Origin: a virus
Strand: one strand, 5' to 3'
IMG/VR virus record: IMGVR_UViG_3300046718_000604
Location: 1 to 35,679 of that record
DNA length: 35,679 nucleotides
The notes under the pieces are model-generated. The model saw only the letters and a list, made by a program, of their open reading frames with translations. It was not told the origin of the DNA and made no database searches. Positions 18,424-35,679 of the stretch are shown here, one piece after another. The translations under genes were made by a program, and so were the position numbers. Position 1 is the stretch's first letter. Each line of letters opens with the position of its first letter.

Positions 18424-18452
18424 TGACAGACTAGGACGAATAGACTAGACTG
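18424..18452 (+). promoter_or_regulatory. Early promoter 2
   Basis: TTGACA (18424-18429), 17 bases, then TAGACT (18447-18452), four of six -10 positions. It shares TTGACAGA-TAG with the promoters at 22745 and 23117. It would drive the 151-aa gene. Confidence 0.55.
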
Positions 18453-18469
18453 CACACCTGGAGGTCAGC

Positions 18470-18925
18470 ATGAATCAGAACCTATCGGCGCGCGGATGGT
18501 ACCGGACCGATCTTGAGAATCCCTACAACGTTCAGCCGATCGTCGACGTGCAAAAGCTGGCAGACGCCCTGCCACATGGATCCGGTATTGATGGATCTTG
18601 GCTGATCCAGGTGCGAAAGAATGGAAACCTGAGAATCAGCTCTGACGTACATCGCATGGACGAACACGGATCCTACTGTGGCTGGGTCGGGTTCAGCTTC
18701 AGAATTGAACGTGTGAAGGCTGATGAACTCCATCCGCTGTCCGGACCGTGCGCGGGCAAGGTTCAGGTACTGTGGCGCAAGGGCGATATCCGTATGACGG
18801 CCGTGCGTGGTGGTCGAGACTACAACGAATACCTCGACGAAACGATCGCGTACTCGCTTGAGAATATCGGCCTATCGAAGATGGGTATGGAAACCATCGA
18901 AGCACCGATCGTGTCTGTCAGCTAA
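18470..18925 (+). CDS. Hypothetical protein (151 aa)
   Basis: A GGAGGT ribosome binding site precedes ATG at 18470. The protein contains an N-terminal MNQNLSARGWYRTDLENPYNV and a central beta-rich part (DGSWLIQVRKNGNLRISSDVHRM, GSYCGWVGFSFRIERV), with an acidic C-terminus. No domain is recognised and it is not strongly hydrophobic. It lies behind early promoter 2 and starts a run of small genes. Confidence 0.65.
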   Translation: MNQNLSARGWYRTDLENPYNVQPIVDVQKLADALPHGSGIDGSWLIQVRKNGNLRISSDVHRMDEHGSYCGWVGFSFRIERVKADELHPLSGPCAGKVQVLWRKGDIRMTAVRGGRDYNEYLDETIAYSLENIGLSKMGMETIEAPIVSVS

Positions 18926-18941
18926 CAGGAAGGATTAGATC

Positions 18942-19436
18942 ATGGACTACGGATTTACACACGAAGGTAAGGTCTATACCCCGAACGGCACGATCGGAGT
19001 CTCACCAGCTGAGAATGCCGATCGAAACCAACAGCTGACTCGAGTGGAGCTGGCACGGTGGGCGGAACAACCCGATCGCCAGCTGGCCTACTTCCATTTT
19101 CCGCACGAAGGTAAACACGTCTATACCCCACAGATCGGGCGACTGTACCTGCCGGATGATTGCGTGCACTGTGACAAACCCAAGGCCGATCATGGGGCAC
19201 TAGAACCCGATCGCGCACGGCCGTACCGATCAGCATTCTATCCGCGGCGTACCGATGCCACCGTCACAACCTGGACAGGCGAGGTCCTCGGGGCGATTAC
19301 CTCCGCTCGCGTCTATCCGCATAACTTCGGCGGGCGGTTTGTGGCGATTACCGTGAAGGGTACCAACGGGGCGATCTATCACGGTCGAGCGTCATACGAC
19401 AACGCGTCGTGTATCTGGTTGAGGAAAGCCCGGTAA
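18942..19436 (+). CDS. Hypothetical protein with repeated HEGK(H)VYTP motif (164 aa)
   Basis: The protein contains two near copies of one motif: THEGKVYTPNGTIG near residue 6 and HEGKHVYTPQIGRL near residue 56, which suggests an internal duplication. CVHCDKPKADHG (near residue 77) could bind a metal. The rest is beta-rich (TDATVTTWTGEVLGAITSARV, FVAITVKGTNGAIYHGRASY). AGGAAGG precedes the ATG. Function unknown. Confidence 0.65.
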   Translation: MDYGFTHEGKVYTPNGTIGVSPAENADRNQQLTRVELARWAEQPDRQLAYFHFPHEGKHVYTPQIGRLYLPDDCVHCDKPKADHGALEPDRARPYRSAFYPRRTDATVTTWTGEVLGAITSARVYPHNFGGRFVAITVKGTNGAIYHGRASYDNASCIWLRKAR

Positions 19437-19453
19437 CTTTTCCTATCTTGCGT

Positions 19454-19482
19454 CAACTCCGGAACCTGATCGCCCGGAGTTG
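19454..19482 (+). other. Perfect 9-bp stem-loop before the 75-aa gene
   Basis: CAACTCCGG (19454-19462) pairs with CCGGAGTTG (19474-19482) around an 11-base loop, just after the 164-aa gene. There is no U tract; the ribosome binding site of the next gene follows directly. It may modulate translation or act as a weak terminator. Confidence 0.45.
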
Positions 19483-19498
19483 AGCGGAGGGTATGAGC

Positions 19499-19726
19499 AT
19501 GACTAAGGCGCCAGCAGTCGGCACGCGGGTACGGCTTACGGGCGAATTCTTACGCAATACGGGACAGATCGCCGGAGGTGAAGGACAGAGCAAGTGGACT
19601 ACGGTCGCGTGCAGCTGTGGACTCTGTCAGGGCGGGCGGTTTGTCGCGGTGGATCAGCCGTCGACCGATGACCCGACACGATCGCGTCATATTCACGCGG
19701 GGAACCTCGAAAGGTGCCGATCATGA
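19499..19726 (+). CDS. Hypothetical protein with a Cys pair (75 aa)
   Basis: The second in-frame ATG (19499) is preferred because GGAGG lies eight bases upstream of it but only two before the first ATG (19493). The protein has MTKAPAVGTRVRLTGEFLRNTGQIAGGEG and CSCGLCQGGRFVAVDQP, a CxCxxC that may bind zinc and sits in a beta-barrel-like context (TGEFLRNTGQIAG). Its stop overlaps the next ATG (ATGA). Confidence 0.65.
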   Translation: MTKAPAVGTRVRLTGEFLRNTGQIAGGEGQSKWTTVACSCGLCQGGRFVAVDQPSTDDPTRSRHIHAGNLERCRS

Positions 19727-20076
19727 CCTTCACCGATACGACCTATACCCCGAGTACCCGAGCACGGATCGAAACCTTTACAGACTGGTTCATACGGTCA
19801 GAGCACAGTCAGATCTGGGGACAGAGCAGCGACGACTGGATCAATGATCCGGAACGGGCGGAACGGTGCCTAGATGCCGCGGAAGTTGGCGCGGACGGTT
19901 CAACCCACCGGGAACATATTCAGGACTGGCGAGACGCCTTCAAGTACTGGATCCAGGATCGGCGCCGCGGACGGTGGACGACTCCGGATCGGTTTATCGC
20001 CGCGGTCGAGGCGTACTTCGATCAGGTCGAGCAGTGGCACGAGACCAACGGAAGCCTAGACGAAGAGATCGGATAA
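19723..20076 (+). CDS. Hypothetical protein (117 aa)
   Basis: The ATG at 19723 overlaps the previous stop and has AAAGGTG upstream. The protein is rich in Trp and acidic residues (ETFTDWFIRSEHSQIWGQSSDDWINDPERAERCLDAAE, DWRDAFKYWIQDRRRG, AYFDQVEQWHETNGSLDEE), mostly helical, with no motif recognised. Confidence 0.65.
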   Translation: MTFTDTTYTPSTRARIETFTDWFIRSEHSQIWGQSSDDWINDPERAERCLDAAEVGADGSTHREHIQDWRDAFKYWIQDRRRGRWTTPDRFIAAVEAYFDQVEQWHETNGSLDEEIG

Positions 20077-20077
20077 C

Positions 20078-20096
20078 TCGACCGGCGCACGGTCGA
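20078..20096 (+). other. Stem-loop after the 117-aa gene
   Basis: TCGACCG (20078-20084) pairs exactly with CGGTCGA (20090-20096) around GCGCA. Like the stem-loop at 19454, it is followed by the ribosome binding site of the next gene and lacks a U tract. Confidence 0.4.
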
Positions 20097-20116
20097 CACT
20101 GAGGGAGGGTAGCAGA

Positions 20117-20785
20117 ATGACGAAGGCACAGAAGGCCGAACAGCGGGAAGCGATCGATCAGCTTAGACAGTGGATCAAACCAGGCGACACGGTGTACACG
20201 ATCCTCGATCATGTCAGTACGAGCGGCATGTCTCGAGCCATTCGGGTACTCGTCCCCAGCTGTCAGGATGGATCGGTCGATTTCATTCACCCGAACTACG
20301 CCACAGGCAAAGCGTTAGGGCTGAGGCATTGGAAGCGGAACGGACACGAACAGGACGCGTTAGTGGTCGGCGGGTGCGGGATGGATATGGGGTTTCATCT
20401 CGTGTACGAGCTGTCGAGCGTGCTGTACGGTGGCCGGCTCACGACCGATATTTACAAGGATGAAGCCTCCCACGACAAGCCCGGAGGCCAACTGTTGACG
20501 CGGGACGGAGCCCCAGAAGGCCAAGTGTACATCGGGGGCTATCACTGTCTGGGCAAGGGGAAATGCCCCAGCAATTACCACAACAACCACAGGGATACGA
20601 TCCAGTGCTACGGCACAGAGGAGCATCCGCGGTGCTCGTGGACTCGTGGCGTCGGTTGGGTACTGGACGATGGATCGATCTGTCCGACCTGCAAGGGCGA
20701 AGGGCGGATCCCGAATCCTGACGGCCCGGAGCGGTTCGATCTACTGCACACGGACGGGTACGCCCTCCGCCATAGGTGGTTGTAA
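20117..20785 (+). CDS. Conserved phage hypothetical with HVSxSGMSR motif (222 aa)
   Basis: The N-terminal half has KPGDTVYTILDHVSTSGMSRAIRVL, and GMDMGFHLVYELSSVLYGG follows; the 'HVSxSGMSR...GMDMGFxxVYxLSxxL' pattern occurs, from memory, in small proteins of many phages and prophages and its function is not known. The C-terminal part reads CPTCKGEGRIPNPDG, a probable zinc finger, after a Cys-rich insert (YHCLGKGKCPSNYHNN). A GGGAGGG lies before ATG. The TAATG junction couples it to the next gene. Confidence 0.7.
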   Translation: MTKAQKAEQREAIDQLRQWIKPGDTVYTILDHVSTSGMSRAIRVLVPSCQDGSVDFIHPNYATGKALGLRHWKRNGHEQDALVVGGCGMDMGFHLVYELSSVLYGGRLTTDIYKDEASHDKPGGQLLTRDGAPEGQVYIGGYHCLGKGKCPSNYHNNHRDTIQCYGTEEHPRCSWTRGVGWVLDDGSICPTCKGEGRIPNPDGPERFDLLHTDGYALRHRWL

Positions 20786-21038: not shown

Positions 21039-21311
21039 ATGAGGAACGAAGCACTAGACGTCGAACGCTACAAGGGCCATTTACCGTACAACGTGATGAT
21101 CCTACCGAGTCAGGACGGGCAGGATCATGCCTACGCGATTCTTTATCCTGAGACGTGGAGCACAGACGAGGCAGACGCGAAGGCCGAAGCGGTGTTCGAC
21201 GCAGTAAAAGAGGCCGATCCTGGTGAGTGGGACTGGGACGACTGCGAGGAACCGCTACAGGCGGCAGGGTTTGTCATTCCACTGTGGCACCACGGGCCGA
21301 TCTGGGATTGA
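21039..21311 (+). CDS. Hypothetical acidic protein (90 aa)
   Basis: A GGGGGTAGGGGT precedes ATG at 21039. The protein is acidic (DEADAKAEAVFDAVKEADPGEWDWDDCEEP) with a beta-like start (HLPYNVMILPSQDGQDHAYAILYPE). No known fold. It is the last plus-strand gene before the convergent gap. Confidence 0.65.
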   Translation: MRNEALDVERYKGHLPYNVMILPSQDGQDHAYAILYPETWSTDEADAKAEAVFDAVKEADPGEWDWDDCEEPLQAAGFVIPLWHHGPIWD

Positions 21312-21326
21312 GTAGACTTTCGCCTA

Positions 21327-21364
21327 TCGTCAAATACTTGACGAGAGGACCCCTTAATGGGGGT
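21327..21364. terminator. Two hairpins after the 90-aa gene
   Basis: TCGTCAA-ATAC-TTGACGA (21327-21344) is a perfect 7-bp stem with a 4-base loop. ACCCC pairs with GGGGT at 21349-21364. AAAAA follows after three bases (21368-21372), which on the minus strand is a short U tract preceding the hairpins. These could stop transcription from both sides. Confidence 0.4.
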
Positions 21365-21380
21365 TAGAAAAAGTGGCATT

Positions 21381-21492
21381 TTGGCAGTAACCTACTGTAC
21401 CTGTTAGACCTTCGGTTACTGCCAACCTTCTGCCAGATCGGAGATGGCAGCAAAAGTTACTGCCAGTACTGCCATTGGCAGAAGTTTGGCAG
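21381..21492. repeat. TGGCAG/CTGCCA repeat cluster, candidate origin or operator array
   Basis: Exact TGGCAG or CTGCCA hexamers occur at 21382, 21419, 21430, 21445, 21460, 21469, 21476 and 21487, in both orientations. TTGGCAGTAACC (21381-21392) and GGTTACTGCCAA (21414-21425) are a perfect 12-bp inverted repeat, and CTGCCA-T-TGGCAG (21469-21481) is a perfect palindrome. Clustered short repeats next to an A/T-rich stretch are typical of iteron origins or of multi-site operators. Confidence 0.6.
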
Positions 21493-21584
21493 CAATTATA
21501 GATCTATTAGTACGTACAGGTTAGAGGCTAAATGGGGGTATAAATCTACCCTAGTCAGGTACCGTCTCCAGCTCAGCTATAGAT

Positions 21585-22562
21585 CTAGGAGGGTTTCGCC
21601 CTCTTATAGATGCCACGAGCGACCTTGATCAGGCGTCCGGACTTCATCAGGCTAGAGACCATGCGTGCAGCGGTACGCGTGGGGAGTTTCAGTTCCTTTT
21701 CAGCCTTGGCGAGGAGTTGAGCGGTCGTGATGCCTAGATCGTCGTATGGGACAAGGGCTAACACGGCCTCTTCCATGTCCATATCGCGGTAGAGGTCGTA
21801 CGGGACGAATAGGCCGGACTTCTTGTCTCGGGCGAAGCGGAACTCCTCCGGGCTCGAATGGCGGGGGACCCAGCCGAGAATGTAGGCCGGTTCCTCGGGG
21901 TTGGGGTCGACCAGATACATCTGGGTATCACTGAAGCCGGCGAAGGCGTGAGAGCCGGCGATACGATCTTGGGGTCTCAGATACAGCTCGTTTGGGTCAG
22001 CCTTCTGCTTACCCATGTGGGCGGAACAGGTGATGTTGACGTGACGTTCACGACACAGGCGGGAGAGGCGGAGAAGCGATACGGCGACGTCCCTCGAGCG
22101 GTTGGGATCGCCAGCGATGAACAGCGGCGACACGGGGTCGACCATCAGATGGCAGCCGGGCTGAGGGTTCAGCTTGTTGAAGCAGTACAGGAAGGATTTA
22201 TAGGCTTTGTCGGTACGCTGCAACTCGACGAGGTCGAGATCCTGATCGTCGGCGACCGAATAGTGGGGGATGTCGTCGAAGCCAACGGCCTCGAACCACT
22301 GGGCATGCGACTGCCACTGGCGATCGGCCGCGAGGAAGGCGAAGGACCGCGGGCGGTTGGTGGGTTTGCCGCAGATGGTCAGGCCGTCTCGCCAGCGCCG
22401 GCACCATTCGGCCAGCATCGTGGTCTTGCCGACACCAGGTGCCCCGGAGAACAGCGTGAGCGTGCCGAACGGGATAATTCCTGGAATGGGGTCAGGATAG
22501 GGCTGGCGGGCCGCAGGAGCGACTTGACCGTCTGGAGGCAGGGGTGGTAGGCTGTCCGGCAT
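21585..22562 (-). CDS. RepA-like AAA ATPase/replicative helicase-type protein (325 aa)
   Basis: The start at 22562 (MPDSLPPL) is preceded by GAGGT; an alternative ATG at 22589 has a poorly spaced site. GAPGVGKTT at residues 40-48 is a Walker A motif, LMVDP at 139-143 a Walker B-like strand, and CSAHMGKQ a likely sensor element. The core matches RepA/AAA-25-type hexameric ATPases of plasmids and phages. The C-terminal part (TTAQLLAKAEKELKLPTRTAARMVSSLMKSGRLIKVARGIYKR) looks like a winged helix. It lies on the opposite strand to its neighbours, adjacent to the repeat cluster, so a replication role is plausible. Confidence 0.7.
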   Translation of the reverse strand: MPDSLPPLPPDGQVAPAARQPYPDPIPGIIPFGTLTLFSGAPGVGKTTMLAEWCRRWRDGLTICGKPTNRPRSFAFLAADRQWQSHAQWFEAVGFDDIPHYSVADDQDLDLVELQRTDKAYKSFLYCFNKLNPQPGCHLMVDPVSPLFIAGDPNRSRDVAVSLLRLSRLCRERHVNITCSAHMGKQKADPNELYLRPQDRIAGSHAFAGFSDTQMYLVDPNPEEPAYILGWVPRHSSPEEFRFARDKKSGLFVPYDLYRDMDMEEAVLALVPYDDLGITTAQLLAKAEKELKLPTRTAARMVSSLMKSGRLIKVARGIYKRAKPS

Positions 22563-22647
22563 GTGAGACCTCAATGAGCGGTGCGGCATTCCCTCCGTAC
22601 CCCTCGGTTATTCCCTGTTCGTCCCTTCAACTCTTGCCGCCAGTCAG

Positions 22648-22678
22648 CGCCCGATCAGGACACCCCCCCGGTCGGGCG
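22648..22678 (-). other. Inverted repeat in the leader of the ATPase gene
   Basis: CGCCCGA (22648-22654) pairs with TCGGGCG (22672-22678). The gap 22563-22780 is the divergent region between the ATPase and the 115-aa gene. I see no convincing -10/-35 for the minus strand. It may be an attenuator. Confidence 0.3.
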
Positions 22679-22744
22679 TTCGACTGTACGGAAGCCGAGA
22701 CTCTACCACAGAATCAGTCCTATTCCAATCTGCCACTTGACAAT

Positions 22745-22773
22745 CTGTCAGACTAGCAGTAGTCTCATAGAGT
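22745..22773 (+). promoter_or_regulatory. Early promoter 3
   Basis: CTGTCA (22745-22750), 17 bases, then TAGAGT (22768-22773). It is about 75% identical over 26 bp to the promoter at 23117 (GAYTAGCAGTWGTC core), and a TTGACA sits eight bases further upstream with its own inverted TGTCA (22737-22750). The ATG at 22781 falls at the expected start of transcription. Confidence 0.5.
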
Positions 22774-22780
22774 CCTAACC

Positions 22781-23128
22781 ATGAAAGTCACCGCGCAGCA
22801 CAATCTCGAGAGCAAAACCGCCCTGCAGAAGGCCGCGGAACTCTCGCCCCACGAGATCCGGATCCGTATCCAACCCGGGGTGTACCAGAAGGATAACGGC
22901 AATTACCTCAGCTGGCGGGATGTCAGCTGGACGGTGATCGTGGAGTCCGAGCGGGAGGCGCAGAGGTTCCGGTCTGCGCTGGCTGCCTTCTTCGTCAGAC
23001 TCGACCGGGTGGGGCTCGATGTGGTGCGTATGGAACTCGAAGCCACCAACCGCGGGCTGACGTCGAGTCAAGTCGAGGAGCTGCTGAAGGATAAGGATGA
23101 GTCTGAGATCGTCAGCTTGACAGATTAG
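22781..23128 (+). CDS. Hypothetical protein (115 aa), probably leaderless
   Basis: ATG lies seven bases after the -10 (TAGAGT) with no ribosome binding site, so the transcript may be leaderless. The protein is helical and acidic/basic mixed (MKVTAQHNLESKTALQKAAELSPHEIRIRIQPG, SEREAQRFRSALAAFFVRLDRVGLDVVRMELEA) with a C-terminal SSQVEELLKDKDESE. No domain is recognised. It could be an early DNA-metabolism accessory by position. Confidence 0.6.
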   Translation: MKVTAQHNLESKTALQKAAELSPHEIRIRIQPGVYQKDNGNYLSWRDVSWTVIVESEREAQRFRSALAAFFVRLDRVGLDVVRMELEATNRGLTSSQVEELLKDKDESEIVSLTD

Positions 23129-23172: not shown

Positions 23173-24570
23173 ATGCAGACGTTGTGGTTGACCGACAGAA
23201 CACGATACTCAACCGGCACCGGCCGCTGTGCCCAGGAACGCTACCTCACCAACCATTTCGGTCCCACCGGTTACGGGATCGTGCCTCGATCAGACTCCCT
23301 CCCACTGGCCACCGGGATCTACGGGCACAAGGCCCTCGAGACCCTGTTCCAGCACCTCGCCGAGACCGATACTTTCCCACCGCTGACCCTGATTCGATCA
23401 GCCATCCAGAAGGCGAGTGACGACTACGAAGCCAAGATCGAAGGATCCGGCTACCGTGGGCTGCTGGCGTCGGAGTCCTCGAGTCGAATCGTCCAGGAAC
23501 AGAAACTCCTCCTGGCCGGGCTGATCTATGCCCTCTGTCGCCAGCTCCTGCCGTGGCTGTGGAGGAACTACCGGGTGTTGGAGGCGGAGACCGAGTCGAT
23601 CGTGGTGCTGGACTGCACCTGTGGACTGGGATCGACCACGGTGGAAGGCTTGAACGCCTCCACCCATGCCGAGCGCGGGTGTCTCGGGATCGGTCAGATG
23701 CTCAGGCAGGATGTGATCGCCGAGCACCGGGAGACCAAGCGGTTGGCCTACTTCGAAGCCAAGACCACCGGGCAGGCTGGAGAATCGTGGGCGCCAGCGT
23801 GGGAGACCAAACCTCAACTTGGCATCGGGACCTTCGGGATCGAGGCGAGATACGGCAAACCCGTCTCCGAGTTCTACATCATCGGGTTGTACAAAGGTCG
23901 ACGTCAGAAGGTGGAGGATCCCTTCGAGGGTACCTGGTATCGACAGGATTCACCCTTCTGCTACGGGTTCTGTCGACCGGGGAATCCGCCACTAGCACCT
24001 GACGATTGGCTGCCGGCCTACGAGTGGACGAATGCGGAGGGGGAGACCAAGCGAGCGGGCAGGACCTATCAGAAGCGGTCGATCGCTGACCTGGCCAACA
24101 GTGATTGGCCCACATGGATCGAACGAGCGGATCAGGCGATGACCCCGGGTGAGTTCTGGATCAACTTCCTACCCCCGTCGGTGGTGGAGAAGCAGGTCTT
24201 CCTGGTCGGACCCCTGATCCCGCAGCAGGCCCAGATCGAGACCCTCAAGCATGCGATCGTGGGCGAGGAGCGGAAGTGGCAGGACATCCTGTGGAAGCTG
24301 TACGAGTACCAACAGGAACATGCTTGGAACTCACCGGAGTTCCAAAATCGACTAGCCTCGCTAGTCTCCCCGAGTTTCGAGTGCAGGAGATTCGGGCTGC
24401 GGCATGAGTGTGCCTTCGTCCCGATCTGTTTCAAGCAGGCTGGCTGGGAGGATCCGCTGGGCGGTGGGAAGTATGTCCCCAGACGTCCACACCACCAACC
24501 AGAAATTGATCAGGCCGTTGAGCGTGGCTTGCTGTTGGACGAGGCAGCGGAGAGTGAGGAGGAGGAATGA
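23173..24570 (+). CDS. RecB/Cas4-like PD-(D/E)XK nuclease with probable Fe-S cluster (465 aa)
   Basis: The nuclease fold is marked by GIYGHKALE (His52), D180 in LRQDVIAEH and the E-x-K pair FEAKTTG (Glu195, Lys197). Cys19 near the N-terminus and Cys404, Cys413 and Cys419 near the C-terminus form the split four-cysteine layout of AddB/Cas4-type iron-sulphur clusters. Such enzymes resect or process DNA ends. It is encoded a few genes before an ERF annealing protein, which suggests a phage recombination pair. The metal-binding residues are seen; the activity is inferred. Confidence 0.7.
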   Translation: MQTLWLTDRTRYSTGTGRCAQERYLTNHFGPTGYGIVPRSDSLPLATGIYGHKALETLFQHLAETDTFPPLTLIRSAIQKASDDYEAKIEGSGYRGLLASESSSRIVQEQKLLLAGLIYALCRQLLPWLWRNYRVLEAETESIVVLDCTCGLGSTTVEGLNASTHAERGCLGIGQMLRQDVIAEHRETKRLAYFEAKTTGQAGESWAPAWETKPQLGIGTFGIEARYGKPVSEFYIIGLYKGRRQKVEDPFEGTWYRQDSPFCYGFCRPGNPPLAPDDWLPAYEWTNAEGETKRAGRTYQKRSIADLANSDWPTWIERADQAMTPGEFWINFLPPSVVEKQVFLVGPLIPQQAQIETLKHAIVGEERKWQDILWKLYEYQQEHAWNSPEFQNRLASLVSPSFECRRFGLRHECAFVPICFKQAGWEDPLGGGKYVPRRPHHQPEIDQAVERGLLLDEAAESEEEE

Positions 24571-25294: not shown

Positions 25295-25511
25295 GTTGGC
25301 GAAGCATATCTTTGACACGGGCGTGAGCATGAACCGCGTCTTGGCACGGGCGGTGGCGGACGGTGGAGGGGGACTACTGCCCCACATCTACCTGCTGGAG
25401 GGCAGCCTGAGCTACGCAGCCCTCGGCGTGTTCTCGACGCGAGCGAAGGCCGAGGCCGTGCAGCGGAATCTCGACTTCCCCACGACCATTCGGGAAGAGG
25501 TGGTGTACTGA
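25281..25511 (+). CDS. Hypothetical protein (76 aa)
   Basis: ATG at 25281 has a GGAGGAAGGAG upstream. The protein starts MDGTELAKHIFDTGVSMNRVLARAVADG and contains a short hydrophobic-like stretch and a beta segment (LSYAALGVFSTRAKAEAVQRNLDFPTTI), with no motif I can name. It is coupled to the ERF gene by TGATG. Confidence 0.6.
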   Translation: MDGTELAKHIFDTGVSMNRVLARAVADGGGGLLPHIYLLEGSLSYAALGVFSTRAKAEAVQRNLDFPTTIREEVVY

Positions 25512-26329
25512 TGGAGAATGGACTGAGCCCCGTCGGAAAGATCCCCCTCGCGACCCCTATCCCGGCGTCCACCCCGGAAGTACCGGGATCGCCTAGCAAG
25601 GTAGGGTCCGTCGGGAGCGGAGGAGCTGGGACCGACGGGGCTCCTCGCCCTCCTACTGGGGAGGAGATCAAGCAGCAGGCTGCCAGGGAGCGGGAGGAGC
25701 AGATCAAGGCGGCTCAGGAGGATGCTCGACTGGGTGTCCGACGGTCTGCCACGATCGGCAAGCTGGTCCTCGCGCTATCGAAGGCGCAGGGCCAGATCAA
25801 GCCGGCGCTGCGGAAGTCGGACAATCCCTTCTTCAAGTCGAAGTTTGCCGACCTCGCCGCGACGTGGGATGCCTGTCGGGCTGCACTGGCGGAGAACGAG
25901 ATCGCGGTGATCCAGCCGGTGAAGACCTCGGGGACCGTCGTGGTGGTGACCACCCTGCTGGCTCACAGCTCAGACGAGTGGGTGGAGGAATCTCTCACCA
26001 TGCTGGCGGCACAGAACACCCCGCAGGCCATCGGGAGCACGATCACCTACGCTCGCCGATACGGCCTCGCAGCGATGGTGGGGGTGGCACCGGAGGATGA
26101 TGACGGGCAGGCAGCCTCCACCGATCTCCCACCGAGTGTGAAGCAGGACACCGGAGTCAGGAGCAACCTGCAGCGGTCAGCGGGATCTGGTGTCAGCGAT
26201 GAGATCCAGACGCCACAGGCCGCGGTCGTCAGTCGGCCGATCGCCTCACCTCGTCCCATGGTCAGTGCAGTCGGGAATCCACCCCCACCACCCGGACCCA
26301 AACCGCCTGAACGGGCACCAGGATCGTAG
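25511..26329 (+). CDS. erf: ERF family single-strand annealing protein (272 aa)
   Basis: The ATG at 25511 shares the TGATG junction. The core has the ERF landmarks: LRKSDNPFFKSKFADLAATWDACRAAL near residues 100-126 and AIGSTITYARRYGLAAMVGVAPEDDDG near residues 173-199. The N-terminus is Pro/Gly-rich and the C-terminus Pro-rich and probably disordered. ERF proteins anneal complementary single strands during phage recombination. It follows a RecB/Cas4-like nuclease and precedes an uncharacterised protein, a common grouping. Confidence 0.9.
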   Translation: MENGLSPVGKIPLATPIPASTPEVPGSPSKVGSVGSGGAGTDGAPRPPTGEEIKQQAAREREEQIKAAQEDARLGVRRSATIGKLVLALSKAQGQIKPALRKSDNPFFKSKFADLAATWDACRAALAENEIAVIQPVKTSGTVVVVTTLLAHSSDEWVEESLTMLAAQNTPQAIGSTITYARRYGLAAMVGVAPEDDDGQAASTDLPPSVKQDTGVRSNLQRSAGSGVSDEIQTPQAAVVSRPIASPRPMVSAVGNPPPPPGPKPPERAPGS

Positions 26330-27107: not shown

Positions 27108-27335
27108 ATGCCGCGCACCGCACCCGATCCGATCATCCCGTGTCTCCGGTTCTTCGAGGAACAGCCGCTCGATCTCGCCCAGCAGGCCCTGAGCCTGGCC
27201 AAGGAGATCCTCCGTCGACGTCATACGGGCGAGTCGGTCCTCACCGCGAAGGGGCCGAAGATTGATCCGCCCAAACGGAAGCGGACACCACCGGCGCAGC
27301 TCAACGATGGTCCGTTGGAACTCGCGAAGGAATGA
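27108..27335 (+). CDS. Hypothetical basic protein (75 aa)
   Basis: The start at 27108 (MPRTAPDPIIPCLRFFEEQP) is preceded by AAGGAG. A helical middle (DLAQQALSLAKEILRRRHTG) and a basic Lys/Pro tail (GPKIDPPKRKRTPPAQL) are visible. It overlaps the glycosyltransferase gene by four bases. Function unknown; DNA binding is possible from charge. Confidence 0.6.
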   Translation: MPRTAPDPIIPCLRFFEEQPLDLAQQALSLAKEILRRRHTGESVLTAKGPKIDPPKRKRTPPAQLNDGPLELAKE

Positions 27336-28489
27336 CCAAGACCCCCTTCATGCTCGTCGGCGACGGACCTGCAGACCCGACCGGCCTCGGCCGCATCGCG
27401 AGGGATTTGGCCGGGCTAATCGTGGCGAGCGACCTACCGGTGGAGTTTGTCCAAGTTGGAGGGAGCTGCCCACCTCCATGGACCGCGTGGCGACACTTCC
27501 CCCTCGATCGATCAGACGACTGGGGAGCCGCCTGCACCGCGAGGTACTGGCAGGATCTCTTCGGGACACAACCAGGGATTCTGTTCACCGTGTGGGATCC
27601 AGGGAGGTTGGTTGACTACGCCAACCTCGATCTGCCGGTGCAGAAGTGGGCCTATACGGCCATCGATGCCACGAATAGAAATGGGGTCATCAATGGTCCC
27701 GCGGCAGCAGCCCTGAGCCGGTTCGATCGGGTGCTGGCGTATGGACGGTGGGGGGCTGAGGTCCTGAAGGCCACCTACGGGAAGGAGATCTCCTACCTCC
27801 CCCACGGGCTAACACCTGTGGTGTTCGCGGCACCTCCGAGTCCGGAGGAAGCGAAATGGGTCGCAGCCACGCTCGGGCCCCATGTGGGTACTGCTGACGT
27901 GTTGGGAATGGTGGCTGCGAACCAACCGAGGAAGGACTTCTCGATCTTCTTCGAGACCCTCGCCCTCCTCCGCCACCGCGGTCGGCATGTCTACGGCTGG
28001 CTCCATACCGATACCCCCGTGAAGGCATGGGCGGTGGCGCAGCTCGTGGAGGACTGCGGGCTGCAGCAGCGGATCACCCTGACCTTGGATCAGTTCACCG
28101 ACCGGCAACTGGCCCTGCTCTATCAACGCTGTGGCTGCACGATGCTGACCTCACTGGGAGAAGGCTTCGGGTATCCGATCGTGGAGAGCCTCGCCAGTGG
28201 AACCCCAGTGGTCAGTGGTGAGTGTGCGGGAGGGCGTGAACTCCTGCCCAAGGCCGCATGGAAGGTGCCCGTCAGGATGCAGCGCACCGAGAGTGTCTAT
28301 GCCCTCAAACGGCCGGTGTTCCTCGTGGAGGACTGGGCCAATGCGGTCGAGCGGGCGATGGGGTGGAAAGCACAGGTTGGGGCTGAGGTAGCTGGAGCAT
28401 ACTGCAGAGGCGCCGTGGCTCACCTTGACTGGGCGGCGTTATGGCCTCGCTGGAGAGGCTGGATTCGTCAAGGGTTGGAGGGCCGATGA
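27332..28489 (+). CDS. Glycosyltransferase, GT4/GT-B type (385 aa)
   Basis: The C-terminal domain has the EX7E signature EGFGYPIVE (Glu277 and Glu285), a PHGL element near residue 157 and ANQPRKDF near residue 196, the usual landmarks of GT-B family 4 enzymes that use nucleotide-sugar donors. The N-terminus starts DGPADPTGLGRIARDLA, a donor- or acceptor-side loop. There is no membrane segment or signal peptide. It opens the sugar cassette on the early strand. Confidence 0.8.
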   Translation: MTKTPFMLVGDGPADPTGLGRIARDLAGLIVASDLPVEFVQVGGSCPPPWTAWRHFPLDRSDDWGAACTARYWQDLFGTQPGILFTVWDPGRLVDYANLDLPVQKWAYTAIDATNRNGVINGPAAAALSRFDRVLAYGRWGAEVLKATYGKEISYLPHGLTPVVFAAPPSPEEAKWVAATLGPHVGTADVLGMVAANQPRKDFSIFFETLALLRHRGRHVYGWLHTDTPVKAWAVAQLVEDCGLQQRITLTLDQFTDRQLALLYQRCGCTMLTSLGEGFGYPIVESLASGTPVVSGECAGGRELLPKAAWKVPVRMQRTESVYALKRPVFLVEDWANAVERAMGWKAQVGAEVAGAYCRGAVAHLDWAALWPRWRGWIRQGLEGR

Positions 28490-28761: not shown

Positions 28762-29108
28762 TGGGCCAAGAGAGTCGTTTGAATCCGTTCGCCAAGGAAC
28801 ACCGGGATCTCACGATCACCCCCGGACAGGTCCACGATGCCTTCAACCGGGTACTCCACGAAGGGGATCTGATCTTCCTCCAGGTGGCCGTGCCGCCGAT
28901 CTTCCGGGTGCACCGGATCACGAAGCCGCTCGATCCCAGCGCGCCGGCGAATCTATTGGAGATTACGGTCTCCAGCACGCTGAAGTTCGCCGCGCCACAG
29001 GGGCAGGTCAATCAGGAGTTCGTGCGGGTAATCGAAGCCAGCGAGGCTCAGCCACCCACCGCCAAGCCGAGTCTGGAGATCGTCCGGCCGGAGGAGCCGA
29101 CCCTATGA
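28761..29108 (+). CDS. Hypothetical beta-rich protein (115 aa)
   Basis: The start overlaps the previous stop by one base (TAATG). It contains DLTITPGQVHDAFNRVLHEGDLIFLQVAVPPIFRVHRI and LEITVSSTLKFAAPQG, a small beta-barrel-like pattern. No catalytic residues are recognised. Its stop overlaps the GT2 start. Confidence 0.6.
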   Translation: MGQESRLNPFAKEHRDLTITPGQVHDAFNRVLHEGDLIFLQVAVPPIFRVHRITKPLDPSAPANLLEITVSSTLKFAAPQGQVNQEFVRVIEASEAQPPTAKPSLEIVRPEEPTL

Positions 29109-29935
29109 GCCTGACCTTGGCGATTGTCACGGCCTCGACCAATCTCGAGCGGGCCAAGCCGTGTCTGCAGTCGTGGCGGAAGGATGACGAGGTCCCACTG
29201 ATCATCGTGCTGCAGACCGACGCTGACGACTGGAGAACGGTCGTCACGGCTACTCACGTCGTGAGTCGAGATTATCTCGGCACCGTGCCAGCCTTTCGGT
29301 TGGGGGTGGACTATGCCCTCCGCGAGACCGATGCCGACATCATCGCCTGTCTCCATGATGATGTGGAGCTGCTCCAGCCGGATTGGATCCAGCGGACGAT
29401 TCGACATTTTGAACTGACCGAGAACTGTGGGCTGCTCGGGTTTGGTGGGGCCATTGGCCTCGGAGCCGATGACATCTACAAGAAGCCCTACGACCCGATG
29501 CAGCTGGCGAGGATTGGATTCCGGTCGAATCTGGTCGATGCCGAGGTGCACGGACTGCGAAGTCTGTTGGCTGAACCAGTCGCGTGTCTCGATGGATTCA
29601 GTCAGGTCGGGCGGAGAGCCTTCTTCGAAGGAGACGCCAGCCCCCACACGCCCTCGTCTCAGGACTACGAACGCCCGTGGAGCTATCTGGAGGATCACGG
29701 GATTGTCCACCACCTCTACGACGGTCTCCTCGGGGCCCTCGCCGCTCGCCAAGGCTGGGAAGCGTGGTATCTGCCTATCCGGTGTCGACATCTCGGTGGG
29801 CAGACGGCCGTGGGCGATCAGGGCTATGGGGATTGGGCCAAGCAGCAGATTCCTGAAGGGGATCACGGCTTCTGGCAGGCGTCCCACAAGATCGGCTATG
29901 CGTTGTTCACCGATGTCCTTCCGTTGAGGGTGTGA
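29105..29935 (+). CDS. Glycosyltransferase family 2-like (276 aa)
   Basis: LAIVTASTNLERAKPCLQSW is a GT-A N-terminal donor-binding strand, and ACLHDDVELLQPDW (HDD near residues 84-86) is the DxD-type metal motif. GFSQVGRRAFFEG and WYLPIRCRHLGGQ resemble the acceptor-side elements of this family. It is the second sugar transferase in the cassette. The substrate cannot be read from the sequence. Confidence 0.75.
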   Translation: MSLTLAIVTASTNLERAKPCLQSWRKDDEVPLIIVLQTDADDWRTVVTATHVVSRDYLGTVPAFRLGVDYALRETDADIIACLHDDVELLQPDWIQRTIRHFELTENCGLLGFGGAIGLGADDIYKKPYDPMQLARIGFRSNLVDAEVHGLRSLLAEPVACLDGFSQVGRRAFFEGDASPHTPSSQDYERPWSYLEDHGIVHHLYDGLLGALAARQGWEAWYLPIRCRHLGGQTAVGDQGYGDWAKQQIPEGDHGFWQASHKIGYALFTDVLPLRV

Positions 29936-31957: not shown

Positions 31958-32367
31958 GACTGAAGAACTACGGAGCCGGCGAGGTGAGTGATCGACTGTC
32001 CATTCTCGCCCTGAAGCGGCTGTTCGGAACTGAGGCAGGCAAGGACGTCAAACACTTCGAGGCGGAAGGGGCCGTCCTCCTCAGCGAGATTCGGACCCGA
32101 ACCCTGAACGGCAAATGGTTCACGGCCTACACCGATCTGGCCGCGGTGAATGCCGCCCTCTGGCATGCGGAGGATGATCTGCGGAGTTGGCGGGAGAAGT
32201 ACAAAGATCAAACCCCGATCGACAAGGGCACCGCGATCTATAACTGGATGGAGGTGGGGAAACTCGCCTTTCGAATTCAATTTCTCAACGACCGTCGCGC
32301 CGAGCTGATCGGCCTGATCAACCACGATGCTGGTGATGTGTTGGGAGACGAGAAAATCAATGGCTAA
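31954..32367 (+). CDS. DUF6165-like protein (137 aa)
   Basis: The start is GTG at 31954 (GTGA overlap). The protein begins MRLKNYGAGEVSDRLSILALKRLFGT (GTG read as Met) and ends with KLAFRIQFLNDRRAELIGLINHDAG and GDEKING. The pattern 'xLAxxxxxxNDRRAxLxxxIN...EK' is what I associate with DUF6165 proteins, which are usually encoded among glycosyltransferases; their function is not known to me. The context agrees. Confidence 0.55.
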   Translation: MRLKNYGAGEVSDRLSILALKRLFGTEAGKDVKHFEAEGAVLLSEIRTRTLNGKWFTAYTDLAAVNAALWHAEDDLRSWREKYKDQTPIDKGTAIYNWMEVGKLAFRIQFLNDRRAELIGLINHDAGDVLGDEKING

Positions 32368-33307
32368 CCCCCTCCATGTGCTGCTGGTCACCTCGTGGGG
32401 TCAGCCCCAATGCGGCATTCAGGCGCATAGCGAGCAGCTGATCGACTACGTGAAACAGGCCGATCCCGACATCGTGATCACCCCGTCCGCCGACTCCCTC
32501 GATCCAGTCGAATGTGGAAAGCAGCCTCCACCGGTCGATGTGATCCACCTGAACTGGCACCGGGCCCTCCACTCCCGCTGGAGTCCGGCGTGGATTCGTC
32601 AATACCAACAGCTCGGAGTGAAATTCGTCGTGACCTGGCACGATACGATGGGCCATGAATCTCCCGATCAGTTGTCGAAGGAGGTCCACGACGTCGCGGA
32701 TGCCTTCATCGTCCACGAACCGGTCATCGGGCTGGAGCAGGCGATCTACTGGCGACAGGCGGTCCCGGAGATGAATGGCTACCAAGCAGACCGTACTGGG
32801 ATCTATGGGCGTCCCTTCGTGGGCTCGGTGGGGTTCGACTTCGGCTGGAAGAATTACGATCGCCTCTGTGAGATTGCCTATGCTGTGGGCTGGGGAGTCG
32901 CCCTGTGTGTGCCGGAGATGTCGAAGGATCGAGAGGCCGATCTCCGTCAGCGCAATCCATGGCTCGTCGTGCGGAGGAACGAAGGACTGCAAGAGGTCCT
33001 CGCCCTCCTCCATGTCTGCCAAGCGACCGCCTTCCTCTACGTGAATGGCAACTCAGGCACCTCGGCCGCGATCCGCATCGGGATTGGGGCGAGGAAGCCG
33101 GTGATCGCCATGGCTGGCCAGCGGCAGTTCAGGGATCTCCACGATGAGATGGCTATTCGCTGGGCCACGAGCATGGAGCACGCACAAGATCTCCTCGTGG
33201 GTCTGCGCTGTGGTGACTGGGATGGACGGACGGTCGAACTCGCGAATCGTGACAGCTGGAGACACGCGGGGCGGAAGCACGCCGAACTCTACAGGAGCCT
33301 CGTATGA
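32360..33307 (+). CDS. GT-B-type glycosyltransferase-like protein (315 aa)
   Basis: The start at 32360 overlaps the previous stop (ATGGCTAA). HVLLVTSWGQPQCGIQAHSEQLIDYVKQ is a GT-B N-terminal segment, VDVIHLNWHRALHSRW and KFVVTWHDTMG follow as in family 4 transferases, and AIRIGIGARKPVIAM marks the C-terminal domain. The clear EX7E pair of GT4 is missing, so the enzyme may be divergent or non-catalytic. It closes the cassette. Confidence 0.6.
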   Translation: MANPLHVLLVTSWGQPQCGIQAHSEQLIDYVKQADPDIVITPSADSLDPVECGKQPPPVDVIHLNWHRALHSRWSPAWIRQYQQLGVKFVVTWHDTMGHESPDQLSKEVHDVADAFIVHEPVIGLEQAIYWRQAVPEMNGYQADRTGIYGRPFVGSVGFDFGWKNYDRLCEIAYAVGWGVALCVPEMSKDREADLRQRNPWLVVRRNEGLQEVLALLHVCQATAFLYVNGNSGTSAAIRIGIGARKPVIAMAGQRQFRDLHDEMAIRWATSMEHAQDLLVGLRCGDWDGRTVELANRDSWRHAGRKHAELYRSLV

Positions 33308-35129: not shown

Positions 35130-35318
35130 ATGGACATCAGAACCGGAGAAACCTACGAGACGAAGGCCGATGCGCTGGCGGCTGGCGTGCCGGAAAGCGA
35201 CATCGCAGAGGTTGTCAGACATGACGACTCGGTGCCTGTCGTGCGATTCGCATCAGGCCCGTTCAAAAACCGTCGTTACAAGAAGATGCCGAATGGTCAA
35301 CTTGTGCGGGTGAGGTAG
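35130..35318 (+). CDS. Hypothetical protein (62 aa)
   Basis: GGAGGCTGAT lies before ATG at 35130. The protein MDIRTGETYETKADALAAGVPESDIAEVV and VRFASGPFKNRRYKKMPNGQLVRVR is a short basic-tailed chain without a recognised motif. Its stop lies at the start of the second copy of the 35-bp repeat. Confidence 0.65.
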   Translation: MDIRTGETYETKADALAAGVPESDIAEVVRHDDSVPVVRFASGPFKNRRYKKMPNGQLVRVR

Positions 35319-35346
35319 CTGATGTCTGAGTCCCGCCCCCCAACTC
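35312..35346 (+). repeat. 35-bp repeat, copy 2
   Basis: An exact copy of 34843-34877, again carrying ribosome binding site, ATG and the codons for MSESRPPT, here followed by a premature stop (see the minigene at 35322-35363). Confidence 0.8.
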
Positions 35347-35363
35347 TAGAAGGGTGCTTATGA
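35322..35363 (+). CDS. 13-codon minigene from a duplicated start
   Basis: The second repeat copy opens MSESRPPTLEGCL and stops with TGA at 35361-35363, overlapping the next ATG (35360) as ATGA. It may be a remnant of a duplication, or a translated leader coupled to the downstream gene. Confidence 0.45.
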   Translation: MSESRPPTLEGCL

Positions 35364-35679
35364 GCATCTGGCATTGCAAAGAGCATGGCATTCAAGGGCC
35401 GAGTAAATGGAACGTCTGCCCGACTTGTGGTGTAGGGATGACGAGAGCCGAGGTGCAACCGATGACCGCCGCGTCCCGCCCCCCTGACGACACCCCGCAA
35501 CAGGTGCTCCGCGATGTCGTGGAGCAGTGGGGACCGTGGCACGATGAGGACTGCCCCGGCGATGATACGTGCCGCTGCTCAGCGAAGCCACTGCACGACC
35601 GGATCAACGCTGCCTGTCAGCCGCCCGTCGCCCCTGACGACACCCCGCCGCAACAGGAGCAGAAGATGCCTGACACGGT
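35360..35679 (+). CDS. Zinc-finger protein (partial, runs off the right edge)
   Basis: ATG at 35360 follows AGAAGGGTG and the frame is open to 35679. MSIWHCKEHGIQGPSKWNVC continues to CPTCGVGM, then a Pro/Asp-rich region with two near copies of DDTPQQ/DDTPPQQ and a Cys/His cluster (CPGDDTCRC). The C-terminus is missing. The 5' part suggests a zinc ribbon; the repeats suggest expansion of a linker. Confidence 0.6.
   Translation, partial: MSIWHCKEHGIQGPSKWNVCPTCGVGMTRAEVQPMTAASRPPDDTPQQVLRDVVEQWGPWHDEDCPGDDTCRCSAKPLHDRINAACQPPVAPDDTPPQQEQKMPDT

Follow-up and report, generated by a model that had tools for sequence, protein, structure and literature searches.

The repeat array and the neighbouring ATPase gene

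The window analysed here is a complete IMG/VR record of 35,679 bases (IMGVR_UViG_3300046718_000604) and likely represents a phage fragment. In a gap between convergent genes, 3' of an ATPase gene, it contains eight exact copies of the hexamer TGGCAG/CTGCCA within 111 bp (21382-21492), in both orientations. Repeat 1 (21382..21387, plus strand; TTGGCAGTAACC) pairs with repeat 2 (21419..21424, minus strand) in a perfect 12-bp inverted repeat (21381-21392 and 21414-21425). Repeat 3 (21430..21435, minus strand) is spaced 11 bp, or one helical turn, from repeat 2, and is followed by repeat 4 (21445..21450, plus strand) and repeat 5 (21460..21465, minus strand; TGGCAGTAAC). Repeats 6 (21469..21474, minus strand) and 7 (21476..21481, plus strand) together form a further perfect inverted repeat with a single central base, CTGCCA-T-TGGCAG (21469-21481), and repeat 8 (21487..21492, plus strand) is again spaced 11 bp from its predecessor.

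When the hexamers of both strands were counted in 120-bp windows of the 35.7 kb record, TGGCAG came out on top with its 8 copies, and the runner-up reached 4. Outside the array, no hexamer exceeded 5 copies in any 220-bp window, a value also reached by Markov shuffles. The whole record contains 28 copies of TGGCAG/CTGCCA versus 19.4 +/- 4.0 expected; therefore, the excess is the array cluster itself. Iteron origins are expected to show a cluster of short repeats well above chance, which this array does, and an A/T-rich element beside it. Such a stretch borders the array on the side that faces the ATPase gene (approximately 21493..21530, with AGTACGTAC). It may serve as an unwinding element, but unwinding itself is inferred. 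The array region forms the 220 bp with the lowest GC content of the record (0.45 vs 0.61).

A first-pass annotation, made from the sequence alone, had listed the eight hexamers, the 12-bp inverted repeat, the 21469-21481 palindrome, the A/T-rich DNA that follows and a RepA-like ATPase on the opposite strand, and all of these held. It had named an equal density of the hexamer elsewhere in the genome as a refutation, which the counts rule out, and a GC-skew switch as a check. No such switch was seen at the array, where the cumulative skew climbs steadily across the region, so that the origin proposal gains no support here. The skew of this record tracks gene orientation and is thus confounded; it would be a supporting sign only, not a defining one for an iteron origin.

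The longest ORF of the ATPase gene spans 21585-22589 on the minus strand (334 aa, AAA_25 / RepA-like), but comparison with relatives points to the ATG at 22562 as the likely start (21585..22562). AAA_25 was the sole Pfam family above the cut-off (E 3.3e-16). A search for a DnaB_C profile match in this protein was negative, and its C-terminus showed a sub-threshold match to AbiEi_4, a winged-helix regulator family. The AlphaFold model (m504ed652f6ef; pLDDT 83 overall) consists of a RecA core (residues 34-263) and a C-terminal winged helix (residues 264-334 in the 334-aa numbering; 21588..21800, minus strand), the latter mostly at pLDDT 85-95. The recognition helix, which carries R305 and A308, comprises residues 304-317 (21639..21680, minus strand; pLDDT about 90). 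This model comes from a run with 17 sequences of relatives; a two-sequence run (pLDDT 45) was discarded. A Foldseek search with the core returned RadA as the top match, along with KaiC, Twinkle, the T7 gp4 helicase and DnaB. The Walker A residues G49, G54, K55 and T56 are invariant, and the protein thus has both the RecA fold and the Walker A motif by which AAA_25 / RepA-like ATPases are recognized. The model accordingly predicts a RecA-type AAA_25 motor joined to a winged helix; a hexameric state and helicase activity are inferred.

Exchange and conservation of the array among phages

We found a single close relative of the window, L002 (IMGVR_UViG_3300046535_001151, a 76-kb contig); a search of annotated phages and plasmids yielded no close relatives. 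Most aligned segments of the two share roughly 85-96% identity. Of the genes adjoining the ATPase gene, the 115-aa one (22781-23128) is 100% identical and the 465-aa one (23173-24570) 94% identical, yet the ATPases themselves are merely 37% identical. In the same place beside its ATPase gene, L002 carries eight copies of TGGCCT, as dense as the eight TGGCAG of the window and mostly in one direction. The alignment breaks over 21042..22612, a block that holds a small ORF, the array and the ATPase gene and is flanked by sequences of 88-89% identity. Since this break spans both the array and the ATPase gene, and both differ in L002, the two have been replaced together. The small ORF of the block differs as well (21039-21311 in the window, a 157-aa ORF in L002), and no relative of it was found in the other loci described below. 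The 115-aa protein cannot be the reader of the array, because the two phages share it at 100% identity although their arrays differ.

The first-pass annotation had also listed a further CTGCCA at 22730, upstream of the ATPase gene. We rejected it as a ninth member of the array: L002 keeps TGGCAG at this place despite its TGGCCT array, and the word therefore belongs to the promoter region and not to the array.

Some other features of the window were recorded in passing. At 18430-20773 (29956-31934 in L002), the window has another block that shows no nucleotide similarity to L002, between flanks of 88-92% identity. The 115-aa and 465-aa genes adjoin the ATPase gene in many related phages; cysteines cluster at the C-terminus of the 465-aa protein, which gave no match in Pfam and might be a RecB/Cas4-like nuclease. 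An ERF single-strand annealing protein (25511-26329) is also found in L002, but was absent from the nine other related records searched. Glycosyltransferase-like genes share one region (27332-28489, 29105-29935 and 32327-33307, the last with a weak match), and the record ends in a small repeat region (35312-35652) whose short words, e.g. CCCTGACGACACCCCGC, match several places in L002.

Searches with successively enlarged ATPase alignments gave 24 non-redundant loci from different phages (the window included) in which a repeat array lies 3' of the ATPase gene. In most of them it follows the gene directly; the exceptions are L016, L032 and L022, in which a small gene, some 370 bases and a longer gene, respectively, intervene. 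The format of the array is shared: TG followed by four variable bases (TGNNNN), in 3-8 copies and mostly in both orientations. The repeat sequence itself mostly differs from locus to locus and includes TGGCAG, TGGCCT, TGACCC, TGATAG, TGCGGG, TGGAAC, TGGGAC and TGAGAT as well as TGAGAC, TGAGCC, TGAGCT, TGTCCC, TGTCCT, TGCACT and TGACAC. When the top hexamer was chosen without regard to TG, about 18 of the 24 loci (ties counted) yielded one that reads TG at its start in one orientation. A scan of 22 loci found that the hexamer count of the array was unmatched by any other window of the locus in 11. The arrays of L021, L023, L026 and L048 have only three exact copies each and are weaker for that reason.

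According to the first-pass annotation, its reading would have been refuted if related phages kept the ATPase gene without the array. This is not the rule: the array is kept while its sequence differs. There are exceptions, namely L035, which has no clear TGNNNN array and instead a different palindrome (GGTTATAACC), and L058 and the very distant L037, in which no array was found. We also noticed a dense array of six TGTCCA in L038 (5090-5374) after a far more distant ATPase gene (26% identity over the core, within a 634-aa ORF), and the arrangement may extend beyond the family of the window ATPase. L032 was the sole match from a genome collection, a 16-kb contig of an Ardenticatenales (Chloroflexota) MAG. 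It could be a weak hint at the host, or a misbinned phage contig.

The array lies within the lowest-GC 220 bp of its locus in nearly all loci, and in 23 of 24 the minimum-GC stretch is closer to the ATPase gene than most repeats are. None of the arrays contained a DnaA box of the form TTATNCACA. GTAC words were observed 81 times near these arrays (30.8 expected), often in the A/T-rich stretch, as at 21508-21516 of the window within AGTACGTAC; they may constitute a second conserved element.

Covariation of the recognition helix with the repeat

Using the 24 loci, we ranked 280 columns of the ATPase alignment as predictors of each repeat base, with leave-one-out validation. The top predictor of C at base 5 was residue 308 (17/19 correct): K, Q and H mostly occur with C at this base, and A, F, Y, D and I with A. 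For A at base 3 it was residue 305 (21/23), and for T at base 3 residue 303 (18/18). All three residues are located at or beside the start of the recognition helix.

Raw mutual information also lifts columns that merely mark clades to a high rank, and the tree-aware test is therefore the one to weigh. Its tree was built from the RecA core alone, and the residue and base classes each change about 6 to 9 times on it. Dependent change was preferred for residue 308 with base 5 (p=0.0004) and for residue 305 with base 3 (p=0.0024). After removal of six loci with ambiguous repeat orientation, the p values were 0.00014 and 0.022, respectively. A Mantel test of motif against recognition helix, controlled for the core, was also significant (r 0.18, p 0.019), while motif against the whole winged helix was not (p 0.12). 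As an example, the cores of L016 and L044 are distant, yet both share the helix start K-T-T; their repeats are TGGAACTTT and TGGGACTTT.

The residue classes, and the orientation of some repeats, were fixed post hoc, with the data already seen, and several repeats were assigned on few copies. Of two rules stated in advance, A305 with TGA held on the later loci L022, L033 and L055, and R305 with TGG/TGC failed on the later loci L052 and L034. There are no hold-out loci for residue 308; a search for hold-out loci in 400 genomes of the phylum of L032 returned only the genome already known.

The covariation between helix residues and repeat bases is strong, and together with the joint exchange it points to the ATPase as the putative reader of the array. 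Considering also the conserved arrangement, we regard it as very likely that the window ATPase itself recognizes its repeats, although physical binding is inferred.

A probable iteron-type origin, rival explanations and known systems

We regard the array as a likely replication origin of the iteron type, belonging to a tailed phage; the ATPase encoded next to it would be the cognate initiator and probably also the replicative helicase. The start of replication, binding, melting and helicase activity are all inferred; no experiment and no read-depth data underlie this reading. No DnaB_C match was found in ten related records, and the genomes checked also lacked matches to DnaG_N and Prim-Pol, which makes the window ATPase the obvious candidate for the replicative helicase. 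Nine of ten relatives contain a match to DNA polymerase A. In the mechanism we propose, the C-terminal winged helix would bind the TGGCAG repeats in either orientation, and the bound repeats would gather several RecA-type motor domains beside the A/T-rich stretch. This stretch would melt, the motor would assemble as a ring on the strand exposed there and unwind the DNA, and synthesis would begin through host priming and a phage or host polymerase. The first-pass annotation had suggested either an origin that the ATPase or a partner recognizes or an operator with multiple sites; this suggestion is supported, with the ATPase as a well supported reader and origin activity remaining an inference.

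The main rival accepts that the ATPase binds the array but takes the site to be partition-like, recombination-loading, superinfection-exclusion or autoregulatory, and not an origin. It is true that covariation demonstrates reading and not replication, that RecA-core ATPases also work in recombination (RadA being the top Foldseek match) and that an ERF annealing protein is encoded in the neighbourhood. However, the A/T-rich stretch with its fixed polarity is origin-like, and the genomes checked yielded neither a DnaB-type helicase nor a DnaG/Prim-Pol primase. The rival is further opposed by the location of the array after the end of the gene, in a convergent gap in most loci with no promoter to control; a sigma-70 scan of 21200-22900 found none. 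We consider this rival unlikely.

Still less credible is that another phage or host protein reads the array and the ATPase is merely a neighbour. A different small ORF does lie inside the exchanged block as well, but it lacks relatives in the other loci, the 115-aa neighbour is excluded by its identity beside different arrays, and the residues linked to specificity sit in the recognition helix of the ATPase and come first among 280 columns for three base classes. It seems even less probable that the inverted repeats are a two-way transcription terminator or another hairpin element between convergent genes. The window array folds better than its shuffles (z -4.9 as DNA, -3.9 as RNA), but some relatives show only a weak hairpin surplus (L029, z -1.2; L033, z -1.6) and the L002 repeats mostly run in the same direction. 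Moreover, a scan found no intrinsic-terminator-like site at the array, and covariation with the ATPase helix would not be expected of a terminator. Finally, TGGCAG is frequent in this genome (28 copies), and one might think of chance clustering of a common hexamer. This can be practically dismissed, given 8 copies in 111 bp against 4 for the runner-up hexamer and the recurrence of the arrangement in 23 other loci.

Beyond the preferred reading of an iteron origin with its cognate ATPase, a bolder one can be formulated, which we are inclined neither to favour nor to discount. The window ATPase would represent a family of phage initiators, not described so far, that recruit themselves: replicative helicases of RecA type, each equipped with its own winged-helix origin reader. 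The TG-plus-four-base repeats would diversify rapidly in step with it, following a partly readable code that pairs residue 305 with base 3 and residue 308 with base 5, and the cassettes would be swapped between otherwise near-identical phages. Such swapping could conceivably provide an escape from origin-directed nucleases or satellites. We searched the open-access literature and found nothing that recognizably deals with a helicase of RecA type fused to an origin reader and paired with a cognate array, but an earlier description cannot be excluded.

Origins of uncultured tailed phages can seldom be identified by sequence alone. The comparison presented here yields a candidate origin, its putative initiator and a partial recognition code, with predictions that are open to simple binding assays. 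The roughly two dozen candidate cognate protein-DNA pairs offer a natural series for studying the evolution of winged-helix specificity and the swapping of phage origins.

Several known systems resemble parts of this arrangement. RSF1010 RepA and GP46 of Lactococcus phage F13 are RepA/AAA_25-type helicases (PMC8965321) and share the P-loop class, with a RecA-type hexameric 5'-3' helicase core. Unlike the proposed initiator, RSF1010 RepA depends on another protein, RepC, to melt the origin at which it is loaded (PMC8965321), and for GP46 neither an iteron origin nor a fused DNA-binding domain is described in the bearing passages of PMC8965321. The alpha protein of phage P4 is a primase-helicase (PMC8965321). 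It binds repeats at its origin via a C-terminal domain, and it has a primase and a helicase type different from that of the window ATPase.

In the PLE satellites of Vibrio, which face an origin-directed nuclease, the RepA domain and the origin are exchanged together as a module, and escape from this nuclease is the proposed pressure (PMC8263062). As at our locus, the DNA-binding part of the initiator and the iterons covary and move as a functional module; by analogy, nuclease escape might also have caused the exchange seen here. PLE RepA differs in carrying a RepA_N domain at its N-terminus and in its longer repeats of about 30 bp, compared with a C-terminal winged helix and repeats of about 6-10 bp in the window.

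SaPI Rep and SCCmec Cch2 offer close parallels in design: in these initiator helicases, a C-terminal domain recognizes iterons located immediately downstream of the helicase gene (PMC7581432). The window locus likewise combines a C-terminal DNA-binding domain with repeats downstream of the gene in a putative cognate pair, as judged by prediction and sequence. Their motors are DUF927 or Primase_Cterm/D5_N, for neither of which the window ATPase gave a match, whereas its own motor is a RecA-type AAA_25. It is therefore not a member of the SaPI Rep or Cch2 families, despite the same putative way of working. The design of a helicase fused to an origin reader has apparently arisen on a RecA-type motor too, besides the motors of SaPI Rep and Cch2.
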